From contig NZ_CP119559.1 in assembly GCF_029278565.1 (NCBI RefSeq), positions 682,001-746,000 on the forward strand: a DNA stretch of 64,000 bases, in the 5' to 3' direction. Below are positions 29,523 through 33,874 of the stretch, piece after piece. Below the pieces are notes generated by a model. It worked only from the letters and a program-made list of their open reading frames with translations, had not been told where the DNA came from and did no database searches. A program made the translations under genes and the position numbers. The first letter of the stretch is position 1. Each line of letters opens with the position of its first letter. The DNA comes from Haloarcula halophila. Lineage in GTDB: Archaea > Halobacteriota > Halobacteria > Halobacteriales > Haloarculaceae.

Positions 29523-29935
29523 CGGCACAACAGGACACCGTCGCCGTCGTCGTAGTGGTCCGGGAGGTGACTTTCGAGGGTGAAGCCGAACCGCTCGTAG
29601 AAGCTCCGGACGCGCTCGTCGTCGGCCCGAGCGGTGAGCCGGACGGTCTCGAACCCCCGATCTCGAAGCCGTTCCAACAACGTCGAGAGCAACAGCGTCC
29701 CGATCCCCTGTCCCTGTACCGGCGGGTCGACGGCCAGTTCCGCGAGGTACGCGACCGGGTGATCCGGAACCACCAGAGCGTACCCGTCCGGCCGGTCGTC
29801 GTCGTAGACGAGCAGTTCCGGCGGCCCGTCGACGGCGACCGTCAGGAGATCCGGCCACGGGTGGTCGAGCGCGGCCGTCTGGATCGCCCGTAACCGGGTG
29901 CGATCTTCAGGACGGGCCTCGCGGATCGGACTCAT
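29513..29935 (-). CDS. GNAT-family N-acetyltransferase
   Basis: 140 residues of the Gcn5-related acetyltransferase fold. The acetyl-CoA loop is V-Q-G-Q-G-I-G-T-L-L-L. The beta-4 strand is A-Y-L-A-E-L-A-V-D-P, and F-Y-E-R-F-G-F-T lies near the end, as in RimI-like enzymes. The acceptor, protein N-terminus or small molecule, is unknown. Its start overlaps the stop of the DUF92 gene by 4 bp, so the two are translated as an operon. Confidence 0.88.
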   Translation of the reverse strand: MSPIREARPEDRTRLRAIQTAALDHPWPDLLTVAVDGPPELLVYDDDRPDGYALVVPDHPVAYLAELAVDPPVQGQGIGTLLLSTLLERLRDRGFETVRLTARADDERVRSFYERFGFTLESHLPDHYDDGDGVLLCRQL

Positions 29936-31275
29936 ACGAGGCCGCCACCGAGCGCCAGGACGACACCGGTGATCGCCGCTGCCAGCGTGGCCAACATGTT
30001 GACGCCCTGGTTGCCGACGATAGTGCCCTCGACAGTCGCACCGAGCAGGCTATCGACGGTCATCCCGATCAGCCCACAGACGACGACGACGAGAGCACCA
30101 GTCGTGCCGACGGCAGCGAGCAGCGCCGACGCGATGCCGGCGATGATTCCCGCACCGACCAGGCCGGCGACAACTCCCTGCCAGGTGACCGCGCCGTCCG
30201 TCCCTGGTTCGACCCGGCGGAGAGTCGTGATGAGCCGGGGGTTGTCGTAGAGCCCGCCGAACTCGCTGGAGAAGGTGTCGGTCATCGCCGCGGCGACCGC
30301 CCCGGCGAAGGCATAGAGGAAGAGCACGGGGTCGACGGCGATATGGGACGGGCTCGCGGCGGTCGCCAGGACGGCCACGAGCGCGACGATCGAGTTCGCG
30401 AGGACGTTCCCGCTACCCCTGGCACCCTCGTTTTCCTCGGCGATCCCCCGCTGGAGTTTCTCCTCGTAGCGGTACTTCGAGGAGAGCCCACCGAGCCCGA
30501 AAAACGTCACGAGCATCGCGAACCAGCCGTAGCCACCGAGGACGATCGTCAGCAGTGCGAGCAGGATACCGGTCAACATCCCGGGGAGGGAGGCCGTATC
30601 GAGCGCGTAGGAGACGTATCCCAACACTGCCGTCACGGCCAGTGCGACGCCGATCCGCTGTGTCGCAACCGATGGGTCGAGCACGACGAGCAACCACAGT
30701 AAGAGTCCGACGGTGAGCAACACCAGCGGATCGTCCCGTTCGAACAGGACCGACCGCAGTAGCGCGGCCACCAACGCCCCGGTCGCCGCCAGGAACACGA
30801 CGACCGGAGGCGCTACCGCTGCCGACTGAAGCCGCGCACCGGCGACGTGCCCGGCCAAGCCCGCGAGGAACCCGGCGACGATGAACGCCCCCGTGGCGAC
30901 GAACTGGTCGCTCCTGACCGAGGCGACGAGTCGCTGTCCGAGGTTGCCGAAGGCGACGACGAAGACGGTCCCGACGAACACCCAGGCGGCCATCCCGAAC
31001 TGGACGGCAAGCAGCGCCAACCCGGCGACAGCGAGCGAGAACGCGGCCAACCCGTGGAGCTTCCCGTCCTCGTAGTCCCCCGGGCGAGCGAACAGTTCGA
31101 AGAGACGGGACCCCGGATCGACGACAGTCAGGACGAGGGCTGCGACGAGGACGAACGGACCGGTAGCGACGACAGTCGCCACCGCGGGCGACTGGATACC
31201 CGTCGCGAGCGGGACGATCAGTGCGAACGCCCCGACGAGCGCGAACCCGGCCGCTCGCCGTACGGTCGAAGTCAC
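29932..31275 (-). CDS. DUF92 membrane protein, candidate polyprenyl-phosphate kinase
   Basis: 447-residue polytopic membrane protein. The second half carries the DUF92/TMEM19 signature: F-G-L-G-G-L-S-S-K-Y-R-Y-E-E-K, A-M-T-D-T-F-S-S-E-F-G and the Gly-rich E-G-T-I-V-G-N-Q-G-V-N end. The Arabidopsis family member VTE6 is a phytyl-phosphate kinase, and a related role on isoprenoid phosphates is an inference here. The haloarchaeal form has an extra N-terminal half with about six helices. The start is set at the GTG at 31275 (V-T-S-T-V-R-R-A-A-G); the longer frame from 31392 runs through the divergent promoter. It is coupled to the downstream acetyltransferase and diverges from the uppS-like paralogue. 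Confidence 0.8.
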   Translation of the reverse strand: MTSTVRRAAGFALVGAFALIVPLATGIQSPAVATVVATGPFVLVAALVLTVVDPGSRLFELFARPGDYEDGKLHGLAAFSLAVAGLALLAVQFGMAAWVFVGTVFVVAFGNLGQRLVASVRSDQFVATGAFIVAGFLAGLAGHVAGARLQSAAVAPPVVVFLAATGALVAALLRSVLFERDDPLVLLTVGLLLWLLVVLDPSVATQRIGVALAVTAVLGYVSYALDTASLPGMLTGILLALLTIVLGGYGWFAMLVTFFGLGGLSSKYRYEEKLQRGIAEENEGARGSGNVLANSIVALVAVLATAASPSHIAVDPVLFLYAFAGAVAAAMTDTFSSEFGGLYDNPRLITTLRRVEPGTDGAVTWQGVVAGLVGAGIIAGIASALLAAVGTTGALVVVVCGLIGMTVDSLLGATVEGTIVGNQGVNMLATLAAAITGVVLALGGGLV

Positions 31276-31393: not shown

Positions 31394-32002
31394 GTGGGCC
31401 TGTACGACCGCTACCTCGCGACCCGCGTCCGCATGAGTGACGCCGCCCTCCCCGACCGCGTCGCCCTCGTCATCACCGAGCGGGACCTGCTGACCGACGG
31501 TGCCTACACGACCGTCGAGCGGTTCCTCGACTGGGCAGTCCGGTACGGTGCGGAGACGATCGTCGTCTACGTGAGCGTCCTCGACGAAGAGGTCGTCCCG
31601 ACGCTCCGACAGGAACTCTCGGCCATTCGCGCGCCGAAGACAGTCGCGGTGCGAGGACCGGACGACGAACGCCAAGCCGACGCACCGATCCAGATCTCGA
31701 TCGGACTGGGCGGCCAATCGGAGTTCGCGACGGCGGTGGCAAAGCTCGCCGAAGACGTGGCCGACGGCGAACTGACACCGGCAGAGATCGACGAGGACGC
31801 CGTCGAGGAGCAGCTGGTCTTCCCGACCGACCCCGATCTCGTCATCAAGACCGGCGCCGAGCGCCTCTCGGATTTCATGATCTGGCAGTCGGTCTACTCC
31901 GAACTGTACTTCACCGACGTGAACTGGCGGAACTTCCGCCAGCGGGACTATCTGCGGGCACTCAGGGACTACCAGGAGCGACAGCGGCGGTTCGGCCAGT
32001 AA
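31394..32002 (+). CDS. Degenerate cis-prenyltransferase paralogue (NgBR-like subunit?)
   Basis: 202 residues homologous to undecaprenyl diphosphate synthase but without its active site. The catalytic M-D-G-N-R-R of UppS is replaced by V-I-T-E-R-D, and the region that follows is shortened. The C-terminal half stays close to family: D-L-V-I-K-T-G-A-E-R-L-S-D-F, then Y-S-E-L-Y-F-T-D-V-N-W. The last residues are R-R-F-G-Q, an R-x-G motif at the C-terminus, as in the non-catalytic NgBR/Nus1 subunit of eukaryotic enzymes. The GTG at 31394 is the start; the upstream frame overlaps the divergent promoter. A lipoprotein gene follows, and the active UppS converges from the other side. A structural or regulatory subunit is inferred. 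Confidence 0.8.
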   Translation: MGLYDRYLATRVRMSDAALPDRVALVITERDLLTDGAYTTVERFLDWAVRYGAETIVVYVSVLDEEVVPTLRQELSAIRAPKTVAVRGPDDERQADAPIQISIGLGGQSEFATAVAKLAEDVADGELTPAEIDEDAVEEQLVFPTDPDLVIKTGAERLSDFMIWQSVYSELYFTDVNWRNFRQRDYLRALRDYQERQRRFGQ

Positions 32003-32090
32003 GCCGATGTCGCGATCGGCGTCGCTCGGACGCTCAAGCCAGCGTTTGACCGCACAGAAGACCCTTGCCACGGCCATCGGAACGGCGAGT

Positions 32091-32963
32091 ATGGACACGC
32101 TGCTGACCCGCCGCAGGTACCTCCAGGCTGGGGCGGTCGGAGCCGCCCTCTCCCTGGCTGGCTGTCGCTCGGCCACGGACGGTGGCGGCCGTACCAGTCG
32201 CTCGACGACCGACCGCTCGCCGACACCGGTTCCGACTCCCGACGGGACGGGGACCTACGCCCCGACGCCGACAGGACCGAAGTCGTACCCGGATCGGCCG
32301 GCCGAACCGACACGCGAGGCTGCCGTCGAGTTCGCCAGGACCTTCGAGCGCACGCGGGCGTACAACCGGCTGCACGCGGACAACGTCGAGGAGATCAGCG
32401 CACAGGGCACCGCGCGACACGACCGACCCGCACACGGCGGGCACTACGTCCTCGCGACGTCGACTGGGTACGCAAACTACGCCGACGACGTCCACGCCGA
32501 CTGGGGACAGCTCCCGGCGCTGTACTTTGTCAGTCCCGGGCTGGTCGTCAGAGCCGGTGACTACAGGGATCGATACTTCGACTGTTCGGATGTCTTCGCC
32601 AGCGAGGACAGCGCGGAGAACTTCGCGACACCGTGTGACGGACGGTGGGCCTCCTATCGCGTCCACAACCTCCACACAGAGGCCCACGAGATCAGTGTCA
32701 CAGTGGAGTATGGGACCGACAGCGACTCGACGACGGTGCTAGAGCGTGAGTACGCCGTCGAGCCGACCGGCGGCATCCAACAGGAGAGTGTCACCTACCG
32801 TCGGGGAACCTACCGAGTCCGGGTAGAGACGGCAGACGGCTCGGTCACGGACACCGACTGGCGTCTCGGCGGGCCACCGGACCCGGATCGCCCGCTGACG
32901 GTGTTGGTGACGCCCGTCGGGGACCTGCGGATCCGTCGGGTCCCGTTCGGTTCGGTCCGCTAG
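32091..32963 (+). CDS. Tat lipoprotein, unknown function
   Basis: 290 residues. The N-terminus has a twin-arginine signal with lipobox (T-R-R-R-Y-L-Q-A-G ... S-L-A-G-C-R-S), typical of haloarchaeal lipoproteins, cleaved before Cys24. A short Thr-Pro stretch follows, and then a beta-rich domain of about 220 residues with two Cys (DCSDVFA, PCDGRW) that may pair. The ATG at 32091 is clear. It converges with uppS, overlapping by 4 bp, and lies 88 bp after the uppS-like paralogue. No family recognised. Confidence 0.65.
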   Translation: MDTLLTRRRYLQAGAVGAALSLAGCRSATDGGGRTSRSTTDRSPTPVPTPDGTGTYAPTPTGPKSYPDRPAEPTREAAVEFARTFERTRAYNRLHADNVEEISAQGTARHDRPAHGGHYVLATSTGYANYADDVHADWGQLPALYFVSPGLVVRAGDYRDRYFDCSDVFASEDSAENFATPCDGRWASYRVHNLHTEAHEISVTVEYGTDSDSTTVLEREYAVEPTGGIQQESVTYRRGTYRVRVETADGSVTDTDWRLGGPPDPDRPLTVLVTPVGDLRIRRVPFGSVR

Positions 32964-33874
32964 TCGGCGAGTTCGTACTCCTCGTCCGCCTGCTCGCGCT
33001 CGGCGCTCGGGAGCGCGTCACGGAACCGGCGGAGCGTCGCCATTGCCTGCGACACGTCCCGGTCACCGACTGCGCGAACGAGTGCGAGCGCGCGCCGGGC
33101 CCGGGTCGTCCGCCAGGACTCCTGGCGGTTCTGGTAGGTCCGGATCGCCCGGAGGAAGTCGATCTTGCGGAACTCCGGCCAGTAGGGCGTACAGAAGAAC
33201 GTCGCCGCCTCGTTGCCGTTGGCGTGCCAGGGCAGGAAGTTCGACGTCCGCTCGTCGCCGCCGGTCCGGACGATCAGATCGACGTCTCGGGTCGGCCCCT
33301 GATAGAGGGACTCCGCGACGGTATCGACGTCCACGTCGTCCGGTTCGAGTTCGCCGGCCTGGACGCTACGGGCCACGTCCCGAGCAGCCCCCAGAAGCTC
33401 CGCTCGGCCGCCGTAGGCCAGGGCGATGTTGAGGTTGAGGGCGTCGTACCCCGCCGTTTTCGCTTCGGCGTAGTCGATGGCGTCGAGGACCCGGTCCGGG
33501 AGCATCTCACGCTCGCCGATCGCACGAATGCACACTCCGGCGTCGTGGACCCGATCCGCGTCCGCGAACGTCCGGAGTTTCTCCTCGACGAGGTCGAAGA
33601 TGAACTCCCGTTGTTCGGCCGGCCGGTCGAAGTTCTCCGTCGAAAAGGTGTACAGCGTCACCTCCCGGACACCCAGTTCGTCACACCAGTCCAACAGCTG
33701 TTCGGTGGTCTGAGCGCCTTCCCGGTGGCCTTCGGTCGTTTCCTCGCCCTCCTTGCGGGCGTAGCGGCGGTTGCCGTCCATGATGACAGCGACGTGATCA
33801 GGTGCGCCACCGATCTCCGACCGCAACAGCCGTTCGTACGCCGCATAGCCGACGGTACGCACCCTGTCCAGCAT
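32960..33874 (-). CDS. uppS: cis-Prenyltransferase (polyprenyl diphosphate synthase)
   Basis: Adds cis-isoprene units from IPP to an allylic starter, giving the polyprenyl diphosphate precursor of the dolichol-type carrier for N-glycosylation. The 304 residues have catalytic Asp33 in H-V-A-V-I-M-D-G-N-R-R-Y, the L-Y-T-F-S-T-E-N-F segment and the IPP-binding I-V-R-T-G-G-D-E-R-T-S-N-F. The C-terminus is about 50 residues longer than bacterial UppS, acidic, and lacks an R-x-G motif at the position where the paralogue at 31394 has one. A CCTTATCGG box A about 28 bp before the ATG at 33874 indicates a leaderless mRNA. The longer frame from 34030 is rejected because it overlaps cspA. Confidence 0.93.
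   Translation of the reverse strand: MLDRVRTVGYAAYERLLRSEIGGAPDHVAVIMDGNRRYARKEGEETTEGHREGAQTTEQLLDWCDELGVREVTLYTFSTENFDRPAEQREFIFDLVEEKLRTFADADRVHDAGVCIRAIGEREMLPDRVLDAIDYAEAKTAGYDALNLNIALAYGGRAELLGAARDVARSVQAGELEPDDVDVDTVAESLYQGPTRDVDLIVRTGGDERTSNFLPWHANGNEAATFFCTPYWPEFRKIDFLRAIRTYQNRQESWRTTRARRALALVRAVGDRDVSQAMATLRRFRDALPSAEREQADEEYELAD

Follow-up and report, generated by a model that had tools for sequence, protein, structure and literature searches.

Haloarchaea are the main models of archaeal N-glycosylation, and their genome annotations usually name a single UppS as the enzyme that makes dolichol phosphate. In the window (here, the entire analyzed stretch of 64,000 nucleotides from Haloarcula halophila), two homologous cis-prenyltransferase (cis-PT) genes are separated by a single gene, which raises the question of whether the enzyme of this archaeon is made of one kind of subunit or of two. 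According to the original prediction, the two products form a heteromeric enzyme, in which the paralogue lends UppS a C-terminal R-x-G motif, in the manner of the eukaryotic NgBR and DHDDS subunits.

Two cis-prenyltransferase genes in the window

Both of the predicted genes were recovered, and the products of both belong to the cis-PT family PF01255, membership being defined by a profile match above the curated cut-off of 27 bits. UppS matches the profile over its full length (5.5e-69, 232.5 bits), and the match of the paralogue (9.6e-27, 94.4 bits) lies in its C-terminal half. No third member was detected in a search of the whole genome. The genes are convergent, i.e., arranged tail to tail, with one plus-strand ORF between them (Table 1), and the motifs quoted for the two proteins all read as given in the translated sequences. 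Chance is ruled out, because the genome contains exactly two PF01255 genes and the division of residues between them, described below, is conserved across the phylum.

The intervening ORF begins with a Tat-lipobox N-terminus, as recognized by eye, and has no match in Pfam. A homologue was found in one of 80 related loci (L071). The 3' end of the ORF shares a 4-base overlap with the stop of uppS, and in this species the ORF is inserted between the two convergent genes.

Table 1. Features of the cis-prenyltransferase locus (positions in the window)
Feature	Position	Strand	Description
DUF92 (PF01940) membrane protein	29932..31275	-	Divergent neighbor of the paralogue; candidate isoprenoid kinase, by context
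Paralogue	31394..32002	+	Predicted non-catalytic, NgBR-like accessory subunit of a cis-prenyltransferase; 202 aa, starts with GTG
V-I-T-E-R-D	31469..31486	+	Degenerate catalytic motif of the paralogue, residues 26-31; T28 replaces Asp26 of E. coli UppS
R-F-G	31988..31996	+	C-terminal R-x-G of the paralogue, residues 199-201; the R and the G do not vary among 57 haloarchaeal paralogues
ORF between the subunits	32007..32963	+	Probable Tat lipoprotein, outside the enzyme; likely start about 32091
UppS	32960..33874	-	Predicted catalytic cis-prenyltransferase subunit; 304 aa
C-terminal extension of UppS	32963..33112	-	Lies beyond the missing R-x-G; the last core helix is predicted to continue into it, followed by two short helices
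Y-Q-N-R-Q-E-S-W	33113..33136	-	Place of the R-x-G of homodimeric enzymes, no R-x-G in UppS; motif reading and alignment
M-D-G-N-R-R	33764..33781	-	Catalytic motif of UppS; its Asp is D33, equivalent to Asp26 of E. coli UppS and Asp34 of DHDDS; alignment

Division of residues between UppS and its paralogue

UppS was claimed to carry the catalytic motif and no R-x-G, and the paralogue to have lost the catalytic Asp and to end in R-x-G; the sequences bear out both claims, in the window and beyond it. The catalytic motif of UppS reads V-I-M-D-G-N-R-R in its fuller form. In the alignment, the paralogue is missing the stretch that follows its degenerate motif, together with H43 and R77; it retains the segments K-T-G-A-E-R-L-S-D-F and Y-S-E-L-Y-F-T-D-V and terminates in R-R-F-G-Q. 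In a mainly haloarchaeal set, R-x-G was found in none of 126 UppS frames, all 104 paralogue frames end in RR[FY]G, and the catalytic site reads TE[RH]D in 103 of the latter; these are counts of frames rather than species, some frames being the same gene from overlapping loci.

The analysis was extended to a phylum-wide alignment of 51 UppS and 46 paralogue sequences from about 25 families, together with bacterial enzymes, human DHDDS and human NgBR. In the UppS clade, Asp26, Asn28, Ser71, Arg77, Arg194, Arg200 and Ser202 (E. coli numbering) occupy all 51 rows, and His43 occupies 45, with Tyr in the others. An in-register R-x-G, with both Arg and Gly, was absent from all 51. The paralogues carry the Arg of this motif in 45 of 46 cases (Lys in the remaining one) and the Gly in all 46, and 45 of them have a gap at the His43 column; the segment with Arg77 is likewise missing from the paralogues. 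Their Asp26 column contains T, S, A or other letters, including an isolated D in four rows, where G-N does not follow. Two paralogues of family f15 (L214 and L186) read L-D-E-S/T-D, with Asp at the catalytic column and no G-N, and possibly represent an intermediate state. Near the C-terminus of five non-haloarchaeal UppS sequences (L141, L147, L173, L184 and L205), an R-x-G occurs out of register, and judging from these sequences some of the five may still work alone.

The aligned bacterial homodimeric enzymes combine the Asp and the R-x-G in one chain. Neither protein of the window does so: the Asp and the diphosphate-binding residues are located in UppS and the R-x-G in the paralogue only, as in heteromeric enzymes of the DHDDS/NgBR type. 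E213 of E. coli UppS was considered as a second residue divided between the subunits, and was dropped owing to the ambiguity of the alignment in this region, where UppS has a two-residue insert.

Structural models

AlphaFold models, in which each protein was treated as a monomer, display the cis-PT fold in both cases. The UppS model (pLDDT 80) gave Z scores of about 25-27 to bacterial UppS and human DHDDS. For the paralogue (pLDDT 84), the score to B. subtilis UppS (13.9) was tied with that to human NgBR (13.6), and neither Foldseek nor VIA-align singled out NgBR as its nearest structure. The last core helix of UppS is predicted to run through the place of the R-x-G to residue 269, followed by short helices at residues 275-283 and 290-301. 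Because the modeled helix passes through this position, the C-terminus of UppS itself looks unable to act as an R-x-G tail. The C-terminal extension is missing from several methanogen UppS proteins and is therefore not needed for the division of residues.

Occurrence of the two genes in other genomes

The survey covered one archaeal phylum. Of the 57 genomes of the family, all encode UppS and 56 encode the paralogue, so that both are present in 56; the exception is 60% complete. Among 145 near-complete genomes of the class, exactly two family members were found in 139, three in five and the paralogue alone in one (G116). At the level of the phylum, the cis-PT family is present in 195 of 197 genomes, mostly as exactly two members. 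A full read-out was made of 28 genomes, of which two are haloarchaeal and the others come from about 20 non-haloarchaeal families. The two-gene arrangement is thus found almost throughout this archaeal phylum, and the co-occurrence proposed as a check of the prediction was observed, nearly all complete genomes carrying both genes.

Widespread occurrence of the paralogue without an R-x-G-less UppS, the pattern named beforehand as contradictory, was sought across the family, class and phylum and was not found. The paralogue lacked a detected UppS in the haloarchaeal assembly G116 (L210) and in one other assembly, G303, both of high estimated completeness, and the missing genes are plausibly assembly gaps. 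Two genomes of family f17 (G186 and G194), each more than 90% complete, gave no cis-PT match at all. Four haloarchaea (G106, G113, G138 and G144) possess a second full-length UppS, which in G106 is also devoid of R-x-G.

Gene order and neighboring genes

Tail-to-tail order was observed in all 66 haloarchaeal loci in which both genes fall within the fetched flank, often with 0-40 bases from stop to stop; of the 11 pairs that share a contig in other families, 10 have this order. Such neighbors are spread over many families (L061-L140; G180, G182, G185, G190, G193, G198, G201, G223, G231 and G243). The simplest reading is that the convergent order is an ancestral arrangement that has been retained. 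Since the genes are convergent, they are not co-transcribed.

On the other side of the paralogue, a divergent DUF92 gene is found in 70 of 80 haloarchaeal loci. DUF92 belongs to the cytidylyltransferase/dolichol-kinase superfamily and is a candidate for the polyprenol kinase step still missing in archaea. Its link with uppS, and the suggestion of an isoprenoid-pathway kinase, were published previously (Makarova et al. 2015, PMC5898192).

Phylogeny and the Methanosarcina pair

In a quick maximum-likelihood tree, all of the UppS sequences lie on one side of a branch and the paralogues on the other (SH-aLRT 91). The two clades hold the same set of lineages, and the split is therefore older than the radiation of the phylum. 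A euryarchaeal group of distant paralogues was already present, without a functional reading, in the cis-PT tree of Lombard 2016 (PMC5088576).

Genome G269 contains a close orthologue of MM_0014 with the TLGG C-terminus and is therefore a Methanosarcina. Each clade includes one of its proteins (L200 and L225), the genes of which lie on different contigs. The cis-PTs of M. mazei other than MM_0014 are MM_0618 and MM_1083 (PMC8131916), reported to form a heteromeric enzyme with C45-50 products (Emi et al. 2019, as cited in PMC8131916). By elimination, rather than from their own sequences, we infer that these two proteins fall one in each clade. The M. mazei enzyme resembles that predicted for the window, being a two-subunit cis-PT for the glycosyl carrier lipid in the same phylum. 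As differences, Methanosarcina has a third cis-PT (of the MM_0014 type), and the haloarchaeal sequences are far diverged. The third enzyme, typified by MM_0014 and MA1831, also lacks R-x-G, but belongs to a separate clade, ends in TLGG and performs irregular prenylation (PMC8131916). In the literature searched, no study of haloarchaeal cis-PTs was found, including any assay of a haloarchaeal pair. The kind of enzyme is already known, and its breadth across the phylum is absent from the literature found.

A probable two-subunit enzyme

As judged from the sequences, UppS and its paralogue very probably form a heteromeric cis-PT that works like DHDDS/NgBR. The central claim of the original prediction is supported by the conserved and complementary division of residues, by the near-constant co-occurrence of the genes and by the reported heteromeric M. 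mazei pair. In such an enzyme, UppS would bind the allylic diphosphate and IPP and carry out chain elongation. The paralogue, without a working active site, would dock via the usual cis-PT dimer face, and its R-x-G tail would cross into the active site of UppS, where the tail of the partner sits in homodimers, and order the two diphosphate sites. The step from the residue pattern to a complex draws on the methanogen precedent and on the human structure, in which the R-x-G tail of NgBR crosses into the DHDDS site and the R290H substitution lowers activity (PMC7573591). Human DHDDS alone keeps a low activity (PMC7573591), and UppS alone therefore need not be dead. The product would be a polyprenyl diphosphate, the precursor of dolichol phosphate, which serves archaea as phosphorylated glycosyl carrier lipid. 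A dolichol-type carrier is suggested because the genome contains no other cis-PT and haloarchaea use dolichol phosphate in N-glycosylation.

Alternatively, UppS could be a self-sufficient homodimer that has dispensed with R-x-G, the paralogue having a separate (e.g., regulatory) function. All of the checked catalytic residues are present in UppS, and some cis-PTs that lack R-x-G do act alone, as shown by the active MM_0014 with its TLGG terminus (PMC8131916). This is nevertheless an improbable explanation: the paralogue has kept exactly the R-x-G tail and the W..SELYF dimer segment, the rest of its active site having been lost, and both genes are kept together nearly everywhere. Moreover, the presumed orthologues in M. 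mazei are reported, as cited in PMC8131916, to form a heteromeric enzyme, and the modeled helix through the R-x-G position makes the C-terminus of UppS look unfit as a tail.

The paralogue might instead be a cis-PT in its own right, with an altered motif and another substrate or a short-chain product. The IPP-site residues of the R200/S202 type, which it retains in the haloarchaea, would suit such a role; however, the same residues are decayed in other lineages, and the Asp, the Asn and the H43 and R77 segment are lacking, which makes this proposal very hard to sustain. Finally, loss of the catalytic motif would also be expected of a functionless, decaying gene copy. That explanation is scarcely credible for a gene that nearly every complete genome in the class and the phylum has kept, and that shows a mean column identity of 77% and many invariant columns over 57 haloarchaeal sequences. 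A heteromeric enzyme of UppS and its paralogue is accordingly the preferred interpretation.

Relationship to bacterial and eukaryotic enzymes

The UppS subunit shares the fold and all of the catalytic residues with bacterial UppS, which differs in carrying the Asp and the R-x-G in one chain. With human DHDDS it shares M-D-G-N-R-R, the lack of R-x-G and a helical C-terminal extension. Human NgBR (NUS1) resembles the paralogue in reading L-V-I-T-E at the lost catalytic motif, in a deletion over the H43/R77 region and in its terminal R-x-G. Unlike the paralogue, NgBR has a membrane anchor, and it is very diverged, with an end branch of 5.7-6.0; the paralogue scores higher with bacterial UppS than with NgBR.

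DHDDS was placed beside the archaeal catalytic subunits in the quick maximum-likelihood tree (SH-aLRT 88), and the archaeal catalytic profile gave it 244 bits, a modest lead over three bacterial enzymes (231, 223 and 208). Placement of NgBR by the tree was set aside: this very long branch underwent long-branch joining with L198, and the AU test did not reject a clade of NgBR and DHDDS (p-AU of 0.457). It is possible, albeit doubtful, that cis-PT was divided into a catalytic and an R-x-G-lending subunit on a single occasion, earlier than the radiation of the phylum, and that eukaryotic DHDDS/NgBR descends from this archaeal heteromer instead of having originated by a duplication of its own. Points in favor of a single origin are that DHDDS stands beside the archaeal catalytic clade and scores best with its profile, and that NgBR shares the L-V-I-T-E reading and a similar deletion with the paralogue.

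If the two-subunit interpretation is true, nearly every genome of the phylum would need two subunits for this enzyme. The pair is easily testable in tractable hosts and would offer relatives of DHDDS/NgBR, the human disease enzyme, that are soluble and diverse. It also bears on the question of whether the eukaryotic enzyme came from archaea.
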